A DNA stretch of 33,356 bases, taken from a virus. The notes below the pieces were generated by a model. That model saw nothing but the letters and a program-made list of their open reading frames with translations. It made no database searches and was not told the DNA's origin. This document shows, in pieces, positions 23,997 to 30,798 of this stretch (position 1 is its first letter; each line of letters starts with the position of its first letter). A program made the position numbers and the translations under genes. The stretch lies in the IMG/VR virus record IMGVR_UViG_3300032265_000173, positions 1 to 33,356 of that record, one strand, 5' to 3'.

Positions 23997-25805
23997 GTGG
24001 GCATATTTGATCGCTTTGCCAAAGCAGTAGCAGACCAACTAGAGAAGTCTCCTAAGCTCTTTGCTGGCGCAAATACTATGACCGAGGCACAGATGCGTTC
24101 GGCTGGCGGTATTGCTCAGACTCAGTACGGATACGGCACATCAACGCCAATGCCTCGAAACCCACTTCTTGCCAATGTACCTTTCGCACCGGGCTTGCCT
24201 TTAATCCCCGGCGCTCTCAACCCGCTTAACCCTGATACTGGCAGACCTAATCCACGCCGTTATGAGTATTTGGTAGCACAGAACATCAATGTCAGCGAAA
24301 ACCGCCTAGTGCCATTTAAGACACTACGAGCCGCCGCAGATCAAATTGACATCCTGCGCCGTTGCATTGAGGTAAGGAAGGCCAAACTTACGGGGCTAGA
24401 GTGGGATATCGTTCTCACCGATGCCGCCTCTGAGCGCATTAGCGCCGAGTCTGGCGGTAATCACCTACGAGCTATGGCAGATGCCCGTATTAGATTCGCG
24501 CCCGAGATCGCGCGTATGCGTAAGTTCTGGGAAACTCCTGACCCTGCTAACGGCCTTGGTTTCACCGATTGGCTCTCAATGGCTATTGAAGAGATGGATG
24601 TTCTTGATGCGCTCGCCGTTTGGCCTGAAGCCACAGTAGGCGGGGAGATCCGAGGATTACAGATTCTAGATGGCTCGACTATCAAGCCACTCATTGATGA
24701 TCGCGGTATGCGCCCTGATCCCGAGACAGGCCCGGCTTTCCAACAGATTCTTTACGGATTCCCACGCTCTGAGTTCTCTGCAACGGTAGATGACGAAGCC
24801 GCAGATGGAGAGTTCTCTAGCGATGAACTTGCTTACCTTATTCGCAATCGCCGCGCTAATACAGTTTATGGATACTCACCAGTAGAGCGCGCTCTACCTA
24901 TGGCAGATATCTACTTGCGCCGTCAGCAATGGTTACGCGCTGAGTTCACAGATGGCGTTATGCCAAAGACCTTCTTAGAGCTACCTGAATCTGCCAATCT
25001 TACACCTGAGCAGATCCGCGCCTATGAAAATATCTTTAATGACGATCTAGCAGGGCAGACAGAACAACGCAATCGTATGCGCTTCCTCTTGCCGGGCGCC
25101 TCACTCAAGTTTGAAGAAGGCTACCAAGAGAAGTTCTCAGATCGTTTAGATGATTACCTCATCACCTCTATTACAGGACATTTTGGCGTTCTTCCTACTG
25201 AGATTGGATTCTCTGCTAAAGGCGGTATGGGTTCATCAGGTCATCAGGCAGGCGAAGCAGAAGCGGCAGAGCAGATCGGTACTATCCCAACTGCGCGCTG
25301 GCTCTCACAACAGATTTCTAACCTTTCTTATCGCTGGCTCGGTATGCCACGCGAACTTGAATTCCGTCTAGCACCTTCCGAGCGTTCTAATACTGAAGAA
25401 GCCGCAAAGCGCGATGATATTCGCAAGCGTTCTGCTGGTATGACTGTTAATGAAGGTCGAGCCGATCTAGGCTTGCCTCTTATTGATGCACCTGAAGCCG
25501 ATATGCCATTCCTTGTAGCAGGTCAATCAGTATTTCTCTTTAGCCCTGATGGAATGGTTGCCGCAGGAACTCCTGTAAATGAAAATGGCGAACAGACCGA
25601 GCCTGCCCCTGTTGCTGAGAAGCCAGTAGAGCCTAAGAAGGAAGAAGTTAAAAAGTTTATTCGTTGGGTACGCAAAGGCAATACTGCAAAGTCATTTAAC
25701 TTTGAACACTTAGAATCTACCTACGCTGAAGTTCTCAATAAGTTTGTTGAGGCTGGCGATCCTGACGGCGCTCGTTGGTACGCTGAACGCTATTTGGGGT
25801 TGTAA
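23997..25805 (+). CDS. portal protein
   Basis: A 602-residue protein started with GTG 23997 behind AAGGAG. After a disordered N-terminus, motifs such as RRCIEVRKAKLTGLEWDI, VLDALAVWPE, YGYSPVERALPMADIYLRRQ and NDDLAGQTEQRNRMRFLLPG, with the helical crown after about 370, match tailed-phage portals (HK97/SPP1-type). It forms the ring through which DNA enters and the head-tail vertex. C-terminal tail is charged. Followed directly by the MuF-like gene, as usual. Confidence 0.9.
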   Translation: MGIFDRFAKAVADQLEKSPKLFAGANTMTEAQMRSAGGIAQTQYGYGTSTPMPRNPLLANVPFAPGLPLIPGALNPLNPDTGRPNPRRYEYLVAQNINVSENRLVPFKTLRAAADQIDILRRCIEVRKAKLTGLEWDIVLTDAASERISAESGGNHLRAMADARIRFAPEIARMRKFWETPDPANGLGFTDWLSMAIEEMDVLDALAVWPEATVGGEIRGLQILDGSTIKPLIDDRGMRPDPETGPAFQQILYGFPRSEFSATVDDEAADGEFSSDELAYLIRNRRANTVYGYSPVERALPMADIYLRRQQWLRAEFTDGVMPKTFLELPESANLTPEQIRAYENIFNDDLAGQTEQRNRMRFLLPGASLKFEEGYQEKFSDRLDDYLITSITGHFGVLPTEIGFSAKGGMGSSGHQAGEAEAAEQIGTIPTARWLSQQISNLSYRWLGMPRELEFRLAPSERSNTEEAAKRDDIRKRSAGMTVNEGRADLGLPLIDAPEADMPFLVAGQSVFLFSPDGMVAAGTPVNENGEQTEPAPVAEKPVEPKKEEVKKFIRWVRKGNTAKSFNFEHLESTYAEVLNKFVEAGDPDGARWYAERYLGL

Positions 25806-27016
25806 TGAAATCCCCGGCAAAAGGCGCAATCGTAAGAATTGCCGCTAAAAACGCTGACAAGATTCGCGCCGCTTTCTCGGTAGCGATTGACTCAGAAGCG
25901 ATAGCGCAATCCTTTGCAGAGACTCACCCTGCTGGCGGGGAAGTAACCCCACAGATGGCAAGAGACTGGGCGCAGATTCATATAACAGTAGATAAGAAGC
26001 CGCTTGTAGATGCTCTACGCAGGCTTTACGCAGATGGTTGGGTAACAGGCGATCTTGCCGCTCGCTACACCCTAGCTCACCTTACCCGCAATAAGGCCAT
26101 AAATGCCCCTGCGGTTGGTTTGGTGAACTGGGATACTTGGACACCCGGTAACGCCGCCGCCTCTGCCCTGCTATCGCCTAAAGGCGGGTTGCAAACCCTT
26201 CTCGACAAGGCACAGATCACCATTGACGGAGTATCTAATACAAAGTTAGACCGCATCGGCACGATTCTTTCTGATGCGCTCGCGCAAGGCTTAACGCCTC
26301 AAAGCGTTTCAACTATGGTAGATCAGGTTGTAAATGATCCTGCTCAAGCTTTAGTGATTGCTCAGACCGAAATGAGTCGCGCAGTAGTTGATGCCGAACT
26401 TGCCCAATACGCAGATTCAGGCGTTGAGATGGTTGAATGGTTGGTAGCCGATCCTTGCCCTGAGTGCCAAGAGAACCTAGATGCTTCCCCTATCTCTATT
26501 GACGAAGATTGGCCTAATGGAGATGCGCCAGTTCACCCTAACTGTATGTGCGATATAGCTCCTTATATTACAGATAGCCTTTCACTATCAGTAAGCGCGG
26601 ATATTGTTAAATCAGTACCTAGCAAGATAGAAGTAGAACGCGCACTATCTCGCCTCAAGATTCTGCCTAATCCACCTTCCGGTGAACAAGGTGCAGATAC
26701 AGATAAGTTAGTTGAATCGCCTTGGCAAGTTATAGATCCAATCACTGTTAATCCGAGCATTTGGGATACGGCTGAAATGGCGTTAGTTCAGTTTGATAAT
26801 CTCACTGCAACAGACGATTATTTATTCCGTAAGAAACTTAAAGAACATATTAAGGCTATGGGTCAAGCCATTACACCTTACAGAAGTTTCGCCCTTATCG
26901 TTGAGAGAGACGGTCAGCAAATTATTATTGACGGACACCACCGCCTTATGGCTATGTGGATGCTCGGCTTTACAGAAGCACCAGTTTGGTTAGCCAAAGA
27001 AACTAAGGAGAAATAA
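25805..27016 (+). CDS. MuF-like head morphogenesis protein with C-terminal ParB-like domain
   Basis: A 403-residue protein, ATG in TAATG overlap with the portal. Residues about 150-250 form the MuF-like minor head domain: IAQTEMSRAVVDAELAQYA, then the cysteine-bearing ending PCPECQEN...DAPVHPNCMCD. After a linker, residues about 300-400 show a ParB-like module with DGHHRLMAMWMLGF (about 376-389), preceded by PSIWDTAEMAL. MuF proteins are often fused to toxin or enzymatic C-termini that travel with the capsid. The tail domain could be an injected or capsid-borne nuclease, but a structural role is possible. Confidence 0.82.
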   Translation: MKSPAKGAIVRIAAKNADKIRAAFSVAIDSEAIAQSFAETHPAGGEVTPQMARDWAQIHITVDKKPLVDALRRLYADGWVTGDLAARYTLAHLTRNKAINAPAVGLVNWDTWTPGNAAASALLSPKGGLQTLLDKAQITIDGVSNTKLDRIGTILSDALAQGLTPQSVSTMVDQVVNDPAQALVIAQTEMSRAVVDAELAQYADSGVEMVEWLVADPCPECQENLDASPISIDEDWPNGDAPVHPNCMCDIAPYITDSLSLSVSADIVKSVPSKIEVERALSRLKILPNPPSGEQGADTDKLVESPWQVIDPITVNPSIWDTAEMALVQFDNLTATDDYLFRKKLKEHIKAMGQAITPYRSFALIVERDGQQIIIDGHHRLMAMWMLGFTEAPVWLAKETKEK

Positions 27017-27313: not shown

Positions 27314-28804
27314 ATGGCACTAGATTTCACTAATGCGTATGCACCTTTAATTAAGGCAGACAAACACGCTGACGGAACTATGACCGTTTATGGCAAAGCA
27401 ACAGATGACTCTATTGATTCAGATAGTCAAATCTGCGATGCAACATGGCTAGATACCGCCATGCCTCAGTGGTTTAAGTCAGGCGGTAATATCCGCGAAC
27501 AACATTCTAATATCGCGGCGGGAGTTGCTAAGGAATATGAAGTTAAGAACGATGGTCATTACATCACTGCTCTTGTCGTTGATCCTGTTAGCGTTAAGAA
27601 AGTCGAGACAGGCGTTCTTAAAGGCTTCTCAATAGGAATTCGCGCCCCACGCGTAGTACGCGATAACAAGGCAGTCAATGGTCGAATCATTGACGGTCAG
27701 ATCGTAGAGATCAGCCTTGTGGACAGACCCGCCAACCCAAATGCGAAGCTGATTATGGCTAAGAGCGTTGAAGGCGAATCATCATTGGTGCAAGTTGAAG
27801 AACTGCACGAATACAAAGCACCTCTGCCTACAGAGATTGCTAAAGCGACCAAGAAAGGGTCAAAGATGGACACAATCAAAAAGATCGCGGAATTGGCAAA
27901 GTCTTTGACACCAGACTCCGTAAAGTTCGATAAAGATGCGTTTGATGCCGCTCGTACTGCGCTCGCTAACCTCATTGTTGTAGAGGCTAACGAAATGGCT
28001 ACAGAAGGCTCAAACGAAAAGGATTCTATTGAAGAACTCCTTGATGCAGTTAAGCACTTATTCCACTGGTACGAAGGCGAAGTTGCCGAAGGCGAAGTTG
28101 CCGCCCCAGAACTCAACACCATTGAGCTAGGCGCAGAAGCCGAAGTTACTAAGAGTGGTTGCGATCACGAAGATTCTTGTGCTGGTTGCGATTGCGCTGG
28201 TTGCTCAGACTGCGGCGGTTGCGATGACAAGATGTGTAAGGGTTGCTCTTACAAGATGGCAGAAAAGTCCGATACTGCTGAGAAGTGCTTAGATTGCGGT
28301 TGCCACAAGCCAGCCGAATCTCATGGTCGCACAGATGTATCAGTTGCCGAAATGGTTAGCCCAGATCAAACACCTAAGTCTGATGAGGCTGACGAAGTTC
28401 CAGCAGTAGCCGAAGAGGTTGTTGCTGAAGAAGAAGTTTCTGAGACACCAGTTGCCTCAGAAGATGAGAGCCTTAAAACTCTTGTTGCAGAAGCCGTTAA
28501 GAGTGCTATGGAAAAGTTTGAAGCAGAGAAAGGCGCTTTAGTTGCTGAAAAAGAGTCAGCAGTAGAGAAGTCTTTGAGTCTTGAAACCCAACTAGCAACG
28601 GCACTAACTAAGACAGTTGCAGGTGGCCCAAAGCGCGCCGCGACTATCTCAGGCGCACAATCAAATGAATACCTCGTTAAAGCCGCAACCTATAAGGCTA
28701 AGGCTCAAGCGACAACCGATCCTGTTCTCGCTAAAGGTTACATGGCGCTCTACGCAGAGTTTTCTGCTAAGGGTGGCATTGCAACCGATAGCGTGAGCGA
28801 ATAA
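27314..28804 (+). CDS. prohead protease fused to scaffold, with Cys-rich insert
   Basis: A 496-residue protein. The N-terminal HK97-type protease domain (about 1-145) has the catalytic His in REQHS (H64), Ser in GFSIGIR (S106) and the EISLVDRPANP finish. A scaffold part follows: helical and acidic (about 185-270 and 345-460). Between them, residues 283-330 hold 12 Cys in 48 residues, a clear metal-binding-type cluster not expected in phage proteases. An internal ATG at 27866, behind GAAAGGG, could yield the scaffold alone. Protease would cleave scaffold and capsid arms during maturation. Confidence 0.88.
   Translation: MALDFTNAYAPLIKADKHADGTMTVYGKATDDSIDSDSQICDATWLDTAMPQWFKSGGNIREQHSNIAAGVAKEYEVKNDGHYITALVVDPVSVKKVETGVLKGFSIGIRAPRVVRDNKAVNGRIIDGQIVEISLVDRPANPNAKLIMAKSVEGESSLVQVEELHEYKAPLPTEIAKATKKGSKMDTIKKIAELAKSLTPDSVKFDKDAFDAARTALANLIVVEANEMATEGSNEKDSIEELLDAVKHLFHWYEGEVAEGEVAAPELNTIELGAEAEVTKSGCDHEDSCAGCDCAGCSDCGGCDDKMCKGCSYKMAEKSDTAEKCLDCGCHKPAESHGRTDVSVAEMVSPDQTPKSDEADEVPAVAEEVVAEEEVSETPVASEDESLKTLVAEAVKSAMEKFEAEKGALVAEKESAVEKSLSLETQLATALTKTVAGGPKRAATISGAQSNEYLVKAATYKAKAQATTDPVLAKGYMALYAEFSAKGGIATDSVSE
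27866..28804 (+). CDS. possible nested scaffold protein from internal start
   Basis: In-frame ATG 27866 (residue 185 of the protease) has GAAAGGG 6 nt upstream, and starts at the junction between protease and scaffold helices (MDTIKKIAEL). Lambda uses the same design for its scaffold (Nu3 within C). If used it yields a 312-residue scaffold that includes the Cys-rich cluster. Confidence 0.45.
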   Translation: MDTIKKIAELAKSLTPDSVKFDKDAFDAARTALANLIVVEANEMATEGSNEKDSIEELLDAVKHLFHWYEGEVAEGEVAAPELNTIELGAEAEVTKSGCDHEDSCAGCDCAGCSDCGGCDDKMCKGCSYKMAEKSDTAEKCLDCGCHKPAESHGRTDVSVAEMVSPDQTPKSDEADEVPAVAEEVVAEEEVSETPVASEDESLKTLVAEAVKSAMEKFEAEKGALVAEKESAVEKSLSLETQLATALTKTVAGGPKRAATISGAQSNEYLVKAATYKAKAQATTDPVLAKGYMALYAEFSAKGGIATDSVSE

Positions 28805-28830: not shown

Positions 28831-30480
28831 ATGGCACAGTTGCCTAAAGCCACAGACCTTTTCGGTGATGTAAAGCCAAAGAAAGCCGCAGAACTTCAGG
28901 AGCAATACCTCGGAGAACTCAATAAGTCTTTCTCTAACCCATCAACCGTTCCGGGTCAAGCACCAACAGTAGATGCTGCTTCACAGATCGAGGCTCTTGT
29001 TGCAAACAAGTCTCTTTCACCAGATGCAGTAGGTTCACTCAACGCGGCTCTTGCAGCTCAGCGTATTGCTTCAGCAGATATCGTAAAAGACATCTCGCTT
29101 ACAAGCCCACTTAGCACATCTTTTGCGGCCTTCGATCTCGAAGCACCTGCAAAGTTGCTTACACCACGCCCAACACCTCTACGCAACAAGATTGTTCGTA
29201 AAAAGGGTGTCGGTACATCACACCGCGTAAAGCGTATTACTGGTTACACTGGTACTGGTACTGGTGGACAAGGAAATATCTGGCCGGGTATCACAGAAAC
29301 AACAACCACTGCTTTTGGTTCAATTAACTTTGAGCGTGGCCCAAAGATCGCTTACACTGCCGATGATCTAGTAATCCCTTACAACTCATACTCACTATCT
29401 GACTCAGTTAGCTTTGATGCTAACTTCTCAGGTCTTGGATATCAGGATCTCCGTCAGCTCTCAAGCACATCTACTCTCTACGCAACAATGTTGATGGAAG
29501 AGCGTATGTTCCTCTACTCACGCGGTACTGCATCAGGTTTCTCAGGCGCTCTCGCAGCTCCAACAGTTACCCTTTCAGCAGTTTCAGCAACAGGTTCACA
29601 GGTCGGCCTTACAAACGGCACAACCTATTATGTCTATGCAACTTCTTCTGCTGGTTCTTTTGGTGAGTCTGTTCTTTCAACAGTTCAGTCTCAGGCAATC
29701 ACCACAGGTCAGGTTGTTAAGATTGCCGTAAACAATGTTGTCGGCGCAGTTGGCACAAAGGTTTATGTCGGTACAACAACTGGTGCGGCTAACGCTCACT
29801 ATGTTGGTACTATCTCAGGTCTTGCAGGCTTCATCAACGGCACAGGTGGCCCAGTAACAGGAGACAACCTTGTATTCAATACAACAGGTACTCTTGCTTC
29901 TACCATTTCTGCTGATACCTCTGCTTATGCAACAGGTTACGATGGAATCATCCCAACTGTCCTCGGTGCAAACTCAGGCGCAGTCAATGAGATCAACTCA
30001 ACCTTCTCTACATCTAATCCGGGCGTTGAATACCAGACTGTATTCGGCACACTTTACGATGGAGTCAAAGCTGACCCAGATGAGATCCTCATCAACGGTG
30101 CAGATCGCCGTCAGCTCTCAGATGCAATCAAGAATGGCTCAACTGCTAACTACCGTCTAAATCTCTCTCAGACAGATACAGGCGATTATGTTGGTGGAGC
30201 AGTTATTGGTGCTTTGCACAACGAGACAACTGGCAAGTTAGTTGATATCACGGTTCACCCTTGGCTTCAGCCGGGTGTATCTCCAGTCCTTTCCTACACA
30301 CTTCCAATCCCTGACACAGAGGTTTCTGATGTTTGGGCGGCAGTCAATGTTCAGGACTATATGGGAATCCAGTGGCCTGTTACACAGTTCGCTTATGAAT
30401 TCTCAACATACTATCGCGGAACATTCTTCTGTTATGCACCTGCTTGGAATGGTGCAGTATCAGGAATTATCTCAGCGTAA
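28831..30480 (+). CDS. major capsid protein with Ig-like insert
   Basis: A 549-residue protein in the HK97-type position after protease/scaffold. An N-terminal helical segment of about 90 residues may be a scaffold arm. Capsid-type motifs: SFAAFDLEAPAKLLTPRPTPLRN, then TTTAFGSINFERGPKIAY and the E-loop-like region. Residues about 243-335 (APTVTLSAVSATGSQVGL ... GTISGLAGF) are an Ig/fibronectin-like insert with a TYYVYATSSAG strand. The shell end resumes at about 365. AAAGGA precedes the ATG but lies within a small hairpin. Confidence 0.87.
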   Translation: MAQLPKATDLFGDVKPKKAAELQEQYLGELNKSFSNPSTVPGQAPTVDAASQIEALVANKSLSPDAVGSLNAALAAQRIASADIVKDISLTSPLSTSFAAFDLEAPAKLLTPRPTPLRNKIVRKKGVGTSHRVKRITGYTGTGTGGQGNIWPGITETTTTAFGSINFERGPKIAYTADDLVIPYNSYSLSDSVSFDANFSGLGYQDLRQLSSTSTLYATMLMEERMFLYSRGTASGFSGALAAPTVTLSAVSATGSQVGLTNGTTYYVYATSSAGSFGESVLSTVQSQAITTGQVVKIAVNNVVGAVGTKVYVGTTTGAANAHYVGTISGLAGFINGTGGPVTGDNLVFNTTGTLASTISADTSAYATGYDGIIPTVLGANSGAVNEINSTFSTSNPGVEYQTVFGTLYDGVKADPDEILINGADRRQLSDAIKNGSTANYRLNLSQTDTGDYVGGAVIGALHNETTGKLVDITVHPWLQPGVSPVLSYTLPIPDTEVSDVWAAVNVQDYMGIQWPVTQFAYEFSTYYRGTFFCYAPAWNGAVSGIISA

Positions 30481-30492
30481 GTTAATTAAGGG

Positions 30493-30516
30493 TAGGGCGG
30501 TGTCAAAGCCGCCCTA
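30493..30516 (+). promoter_or_regulatory. hairpin after the major capsid gene
   Basis: A perfect 8-bp stem TAGGGCGG with CCGCCCTA and an 8-base loop lies 12 bases after the capsid stop, without a T run. It probably stabilises capsid mRNA or partially attenuates the downstream genes, not a complete terminator. Confidence 0.55.
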
Positions 30517-30534
30517 TTCACTACAGGAGGCAAA

Positions 30535-30798
30535 ATGTCAAGGATGATCCCACCAAAGGGTATGAAGGAACTTGCGGTAGAAACTTCTAAAGGCACGAAA
30601 GTATTAAAGGCTGGCAAAGATGGAATGTTTCATATTAACGATCCAAAACTAGCTCGTCAGTTAAAGAAAGAAGGCTTGGGAGTCGCTGGTACTGCTGGCG
30701 TACTTACCAATGCTTCGCAAGTTGGCTACACCTGCAACGCGTGTGGTTTCGGTTCATTCTTCAAGAAATGCGGAAAGTGTGGGGAAATAAATGAGTAA
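30535..30798 (+). CDS. small zinc-ribbon virion-region protein
   Basis: An 87-residue protein with a Lys-rich start, then C67/C70 (CNAC) and C79/C82 (CGKC) near the end, GFGSFFKKCGKCG being the zinc-ribbon core. GGAGG sits 5 nt before the ATG. Comparable zinc-ribbon proteins follow capsid genes in other actinophages. Role unknown; could bind a capsid protein or DNA. Overlaps the connector gene by 8 bases. Confidence 0.72.
   Translation: MSRMIPPKGMKELAVETSKGTKVLKAGKDGMFHINDPKLARQLKKEGLGVAGTAGVLTNASQVGYTCNACGFGSFFKKCGKCGEINE

Follow-up and report, generated by a model that had tools for sequence, protein, structure and literature searches.

A cysteine module of phage head genes, carried within the protease-scaffold or encoded as a separate microgene

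What are twelve cysteines doing within 48 residues of a phage scaffold? The question is raised by a whole virus record, 33,356 bases long and perhaps only a fragment, which is referred to here as the window. The open reading frame (ORF) at positions 27314-28804 of its plus strand encodes a protein of 496 amino acids with 13 cysteines, located at residues 41, 283, 289, 292, 294, 297, 300, 303, 308, 311, 325, 328 and 330. All but one of them fall within residues 283-330 (positions 28160-28303), exactly as an earlier, sequence-only reading of the window had reported, and in 20,000 shuffles of the protein the maximum number of cysteines per 48 residues was 8, with a mean of 3.8. The sequence-only reading offered zinc clusters or redox-controlled assembly as explanations for what it took to be one cluster, inserted between scaffold helices. 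Scaffold and protease functions are commonly attributed to enzymatic domains or to long helical ones.

The protein that carries the cluster

The product of the ORF begins as a head maturation protease with a T4 gp21-like fold and continues as a helical scaffold. Residues 6-151 match the unnamed family phrog_21715 (1.5e-29), and the ORF also matches phrog_617 (2e-10; labelled major head protein) and two families of head maturation proteases, phrog_80 (1.3e-8) and phrog_3270 (1.6e-6), which places it by sequence among the head maturation protease-scaffolds of the S77/S78 group; the scores for Peptidase_S78 (PF04586, 14.9 bits) and for the NCBIfam proheadase_HK97 model (TIGR01543, 14.5) are below the respective cut-offs of 21 and 59. 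His64 and Ser106 of the protease domain (residues 1-155, positions 27314-27778) are invariant in all 26 aligned rows, showing the conserved His/Ser of such proteases, and presumably form the catalytic pair. An AlphaFold2 model built from 32 sequences (mean pLDDT 60.8) was compared with known structures by Foldseek. Only one PDB match fell below E 0.001, that to gp21, the capsid assembly protease of T4 (5jbl_B; E 6.9e-6, probability 1.00), and herpesvirus proteases were among the next rows (E about 0.05), hence the model has the Herpes/T4 gp21 protease fold.

The protease domain is followed by a helical scaffold segment (residues 207-258, positions 27932-28087, modeled as helices 207-231 and 236-258). 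The cysteine region comes next, and an acidic linker separates it from the long C-terminal scaffold helix (residues 383-435, positions 28460-28618). The cluster is thus located between predicted scaffold helices, in agreement with the sequence-only reading. The model has pLDDT values below 50 at residues 266-327 and 338-383, and therefore the small metal site proposed below is not visible in it as a fold.

The protease-scaffold gene is flanked by a portal gene, by one for a MuF-like protein (phrog_115 at 2.5e-13, PF04233 slightly under its cut-off) and by the presumed capsid gene. The last of these (positions 28831-30480, plus strand) belongs to an unnamed family, phrog_13692 (3.9e-73); its position behind the protease, analogous to that of a gene annotated as major head protein in Alicyclobacillus phage MMB025, suggests that it encodes the major capsid protein. 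The window thus shares a protease, a helical scaffold and a downstream capsid gene with known head maturation protease-scaffold fusions (T4 gp21 fold; PF04586, phrog_80, phrog_21715). However, the two named fusions that we compared, THSA-485A and MMB025, have 2 and 1 cysteines, respectively, and lack the cluster.

Conservation of the cysteine cluster

We kept 80 of 128 relatives of the protease-scaffold from viral contigs, and 77 of these 80 carry at least nine cysteines within some 48 residues; the exceptions are L047 with seven and L051 and L057 with four. Across the relatives the densest 48 residues contain 4, 7, 9, 10, 11 or 12 cysteines. Therefore the cluster is not a sequencing artefact, a possibility that the sequence-only reading had raised, and it is not missing from all homologues, although the two distant named ones lack it. 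Together with the window these relatives form 31 representatives at 90% identity; 28 were aligned, and the remaining three were left out because they lack the second of the two modules described below. The invariant cysteine columns use both TGC and TGT across the 28 sequences, which indicates that the amino acid is conserved and not merely the DNA.

The sequence-only reading knew of no named scaffold domain of this kind, and none emerged: searches of Pfam, NCBIfam and PDB with the cysteine segment of the window alone, and of PHROGs with that of the 28 members (best E 0.078), returned nothing usable.

Two separable modules in the scaffold

The cluster is not the single unit that it was taken for. 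It consists of two modules that occur apart, as seen in the 28-sequence alignment and the accompanying codon table. Module A (residues 283-311, positions 28160-28246) contains nine cysteines in the window. Five cysteine columns are invariant among the 28 sequences, and the number of cysteines in the module varies: six in 11 sequences, seven in 12 and nine in five, with four or none in some other relatives. One column (number 43) is occupied by cysteine in 10 sequences, by histidine in 12 and by other residues in six, in a part of the alignment where gaps blur the neighboring columns; judged from the sequences, this swap looks like an exchange typical of metal ligands. In one relative, L025, a module A motif (KEPDTTAGCDCAGC) occurs twice, apparently by tandem duplication, bringing the total to 17 cysteines.

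Module B (residues 325-355, positions 28286-28378) comprises CLDCGC-x6-HG and a DVSVAEMVSPDQTPK tail. The residues K-C-L-x-C-G-C-x6-H-G are invariant in the alignment, so that all 28 sequences contain C-x2-C-x-C-x6-H, four putative ligands at the fixed spacing expected of a CCCH zinc knuckle, and their codons show synonymous turnover (TGC/TGT and CAT/CAC). This module was likewise found in 77 of the 80 relatives and is absent from the distant homologues L082 and L083. Two further searches added at least 80 loci each among the matches listed; 218 of the resulting 234 protease ORFs have a 3' end and exceed 380 residues, and they reduce to 108 distinct ORFs, or 62 at 90% identity. Among the matches listed, 54 of these 62 contain module B, a proportion that is not a natural frequency because the set includes loci found via the module itself. 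The eight without it are L047, L051, L057, L082, L083, L185, L215 and L221. In six relatives (L180, L203, L206, L213, L217 and L219) module B is retained with few or no module A cysteines, therefore the modules are separable. The motif CxxCGC-x6-H is absent anywhere in the records of L047, L051, L057, L185 and L221, which may be fragments, so that module B either can be lost or lies outside the fragment; on the strength of these five relatives, module B is not strictly indispensable.

Module B as a separate microgene behind the capsid gene

In L228, and also in L282, the scaffold has no module B, and an ORF of 32 amino acids (MCLECGCGEVSNTHGRDDVSTAVIVSPNETPK) is found behind the capsid gene. 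A DNA pattern for such a microgene, M-C-L-[ED]-C-G-C-x6-H-G, matched 77 viral stretches. In 73 of them the match is a gene of 27-43 amino acids, and in the remaining four (L250, L303, L272 and L277) the motif begins a larger protein. The presumed capsid gene lies upstream of the microgene in 66 of the 73 loci and a homologue of the 87-amino-acid gene of the window lies downstream in 72; at least one of the two accompanies it in every locus. The ATG of the microgene overlaps the capsid stop codon by one base (TAATG or TGATG) in 60 of the 66 loci and follows 1-2 bases behind the stop in the other six, an arrangement that points to translational coupling of the microgene to the capsid gene. A protein of this size is easily missed by gene callers.

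There are 40 distinct microproteins. The constancy of CxxCGC and of the histidine among them is not independent evidence, as both are part of the search pattern. All 40 end in a tail of the form [VM][ST][TIV]A, which resembles the scaffold tail after module B (DVSVAEM in the window). When compared with 89 distinct modules found in cis, the microproteins show a median identity of 75%, and the aligned part covers a median of 97% of the microprotein; L270 and L146, for example, agree at 86% over 37/37 residues. The insertion itself is visible when scaffolds are set side by side: L217 reads ...EEAEGKKPIKKSEK-[CLECGC...ETP]-KSLDTVIP..., and the microgene-bearing L309 reads ...EEAEGKKKIKAKK-KSIDTVVP... 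with no insert. The scaffolds of L282, L228 and L215 lack it as well, and the description of the cluster as an insert holds. From these sequence comparisons, module B corresponds to the whole of a microprotein that is a separate gene in related phages, a correspondence that is new.

Module B occurs in cis or in trans

Among the matches listed, 148 loci contain the protease, the capsid gene and downstream DNA, and they represent 103 distinct proteases. We looked for module B in the protease ORF and in the 260 bases behind the capsid gene. It is present in cis only in 64 distinct loci, in trans only in 33, in both places in none and in neither in six (L047, L051, the distant L082 and L083, L250 and L303); similarity and pattern searches supplied these loci, so 64:33 does not reflect how often the two states occur in nature. 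Of the 103 loci, 97 thus have module B in one place and not in the other, and none of the 33 protease ORFs on microgene loci contains it. Broken down by source, the protease search contributed 48 cis, one trans and two neither, the module search 16 cis, the microgene search 32 trans and two neither, and the distant pair two neither. The window is a cis locus: the position that the microgene occupies in relatives corresponds here to a gap of 54 bases (30481-30534, plus strand) between the capsid stop at 30480 and the next gene at 30535, and this gap holds no microgene.

We mapped the two states onto a tree of the protease domain with 69 rows (43 cis, 24 trans and two with neither), leaving out L305, L258, L257 and L107, in which the start of the domain is cut off, as well as L250, L303, L082 and L083. 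The tree requires seven cis/trans changes, and its starred branches force at least six for the trans label; it supersedes a tree with two changes on 50 labelled rows, which was rejected because a narrow anchor had cost it many rows. The bootstrap is not fully settled and phage recombination is likely, so the count of switches is rough and may be inflated. In the commonest pairing of independent pairs, six were opposite, one was a tie and none went the same way (p 0.031, range 0.031-0.0625).

Other contexts of the motif

The CxxCGC-x6-HG core is also found outside these two places. In L277 and L272 a Peptidase_S78_2 (XkdF) protein starts with it (family matches at 1.4e-14 and 2.4e-6, respectively, each passing the cut-off), and L322, L327 and L329 show the same build by alignment, with an ambiguous start codon in L322. 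All five retain the C-C-C-H set, which is part of the search pattern, within a CLDCGC...HGD domain of about 48 amino acids with a predicted helix. The AlphaFold2 model of L277 is poor (mean pLDDT 54.4). The likeness to the window consists in the same knuckle on a prohead protease; however, the protease is of another family and the knuckle is N-terminal rather than within a scaffold. The core has thus been joined to two families of prohead proteases in different ways.

In L250 and L303 the motif starts a protein of 252 amino acids that resembles nucleotidases and polynucleotide kinases (phrog_415, 3.2e-9) and is encoded between portal and protease. L323 and L328 are small proteins with a CxDCGC-x6-HGD motif and a different C-terminal part.

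Small proteins with the motif are also encoded in cellular genomes, namely in Chloroflexi and Nitrospirae metagenome-assembled genomes (MAGs), represented by three stretches in the genome_contigs collection. A similarity search within the phylum of one Chloroflexi MAG gave matches in 15 of 151 genomes, that MAG included. Six of the 15 loci were fetched; MC-x2-CGC-x6-H is present in each of L342-L346, the five that similarity alone had identified. These unnamed cellular proteins (L339-L346) share the N-terminal C-C-C-H spacing with module B, and the helix after their motif resembles that of the phage form fused to Peptidase_S78_2. However, they are 56 to at least 75 amino acids long and have a further segment, which the module of the window lacks, the tail of the latter being different. 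A profile of the 28 sequences detected no relative in genome_contigs, where 26 stretches matched a pattern and none was confirmed.

The nearest named models are those of HypB in NCBIfam, with scores of 13.6-15.6 for HypB_prefix_1, whose cut-off is 30. Three cysteines of E. coli HypB, Cys2, Cys5 and Cys7, bind nickel together with its N-terminal amine (PMC7055735), and the microprotein has the same M-C2-x2-C5-G-C7 spacing as this high-affinity site. However, it has no GTPase domain, for which 27-43 amino acids are too short, the cis form has no free N-terminus, and an invariant histidine follows seven residues on. With scores below the cut-off as well, we do not assign the module to the HypB nickel sites.

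Named phages yielded no match to the module region or to the cellular protein, and plasmids none to the cellular protein. A composite query retrieved only Aeromonas phage PX29 (E 5) among named phages, and the L305 microgene retrieved eight records, all at E 2 or worse, of which the Microbacterium ones are a DNA-binding protein; Gordonia phage Bakery and Rhizobium phage RHph_Y3_1, with matches near head genes, were rejected because they lack the motif. Among the open-access papers listed for scaffolds, zinc and cysteine, none describes such a module in its title or in the opening of its abstract.

Proposed role in head assembly

We propose, with a probability of about 0.55, that module B is a CCCH metal knuckle which acts in head assembly, either as part of the scaffold (in cis) or as a companion of the capsid protein (in trans), and that module A is a second, looser site. 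The proposal draws on sequence: the conservation, the exclusivity in two places, the start/stop overlap and the fusion to two kinds of prohead protease. Module B would hold one metal ion by Cys325, Cys328, Cys330 and His337, ahead of the conserved tail [VM][ST]xA. Since the motif of the scaffold lies in mid-chain and the invariant histidine is a natural fourth ligand, the site is most simply a zinc site and the ion most likely Zn2+; nickel could still be the metal of the microprotein form. Of the zinc clusters suggested by the sequence-only reading, metal binding thus stands as the best interpretation, given the C-C-C-H set of module B and the apparent Cys/His exchange in module A, and the single cluster of twelve cysteines does not.

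Within the procapsid the module would stay with the capsid protein and the protease-scaffold, where it would probably link scaffold to capsid lattice as a local clamp or adaptor or, alternatively, time proteolysis as a prodomain; digestion of the scaffold would remove it. What such a clamp could do is illustrated by phage D3, where a scaffold domain clamps the inner capsid surface and is digested at maturation (PMC12749128). Supply in cis would be by the insert in the scaffold, as in the window, and supply in trans by the microprotein of 27-43 amino acids, whose translation would be coupled to that of the capsid protein. Module A may be a lineage-specific Cys/His metal site.

Several other explanations have to be weighed against this one. 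The small protein might be selfish or act on the host, merely hitch-hiking with head genes, as its cellular counterparts (15 of the 151 genomes searched within one phylum) and its movement between places could suggest. We consider this unlikely: in the phage loci that were read, L323 and L328 apart, the motif occupies head-gene places (the scaffold, the position behind the capsid gene, S78_2 proteases and the gap between portal and protease), and maturation should destroy an insert in the scaffold. A metallothionein-like or multi-metal sink, which scavenges or carries metal and plays no part in capsid geometry, would agree with the CxC and CxxC runs and variable cysteine number of module A and with its doubled motif in L025, but it accounts poorly for the fixed four-ligand motif of module B, the tail shared by all 40 distinct microproteins and the restriction to just one of two places per locus. 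The window segment, moreover, matches no Pfam family up to E 10, those of metallothioneins included, and is not identified as a bacterial metallothionein; we find such a sink quite unlikely.

The cysteines are numerous and close enough for an iron-sulfur cluster in the scaffold, and some phage tail proteins hold such a cluster. However, the Cys/His exchange and the variable spacing suit zinc better and the window segment matches no iron-sulfur family in Pfam or NCBIfam, which makes this site decidedly improbable. Finally, disulfides in the scaffold or procapsid might control assembly or release, as the sequence-only reading had considered in view of numerous CxxC pairs. This redox switch has lost ground and appears highly improbable: histidine replaces cysteine at one column of module A, the cysteine number varies freely among relatives (4 to 12 in the densest 48 residues), and the heads of tailed phages assemble in the reducing cytoplasm.

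Returning to the metal knuckle, the cysteine module appears to be a hitherto undescribed component of capsid construction, shared among phages. We give roughly even odds to the fuller statement that it is a metal-binding head-assembly microprotein which has repeatedly been swallowed and released by the scaffold, normally occurs in one of the two forms, and has independently been joined to a second family of prohead proteases. If true, capsid assembly would gain a further participant: a metal knuckle of 30 residues, usually present and either part of the scaffold or separate, which serves as a capsid co-factor with or without a covalent link to the scaffold. The cis and trans forms of one part among close relatives constitute a natural experiment.

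Further features of the loci

The 87-amino-acid protein encoded behind the capsid gene of the window (positions 30535-30798) has no Pfam match and a zinc-ribbon-like end, TCNACGFGSFFKKCGKCG. The C-terminal segment of the MuF-like protein (positions 25805-27016), at about residues 320-402, weakly resembles ParB-like nucleases (PF08857 at 0.027, phrog_620 at 0.0013). L031, L039, L048 and L063 contain an additional segment, SYPIANVxDLKNAIQAFGRAK, between the protease and the helical part, and L031 and L063 also carry an N-terminal extension, FVPPAEVRANAKRGLEL.
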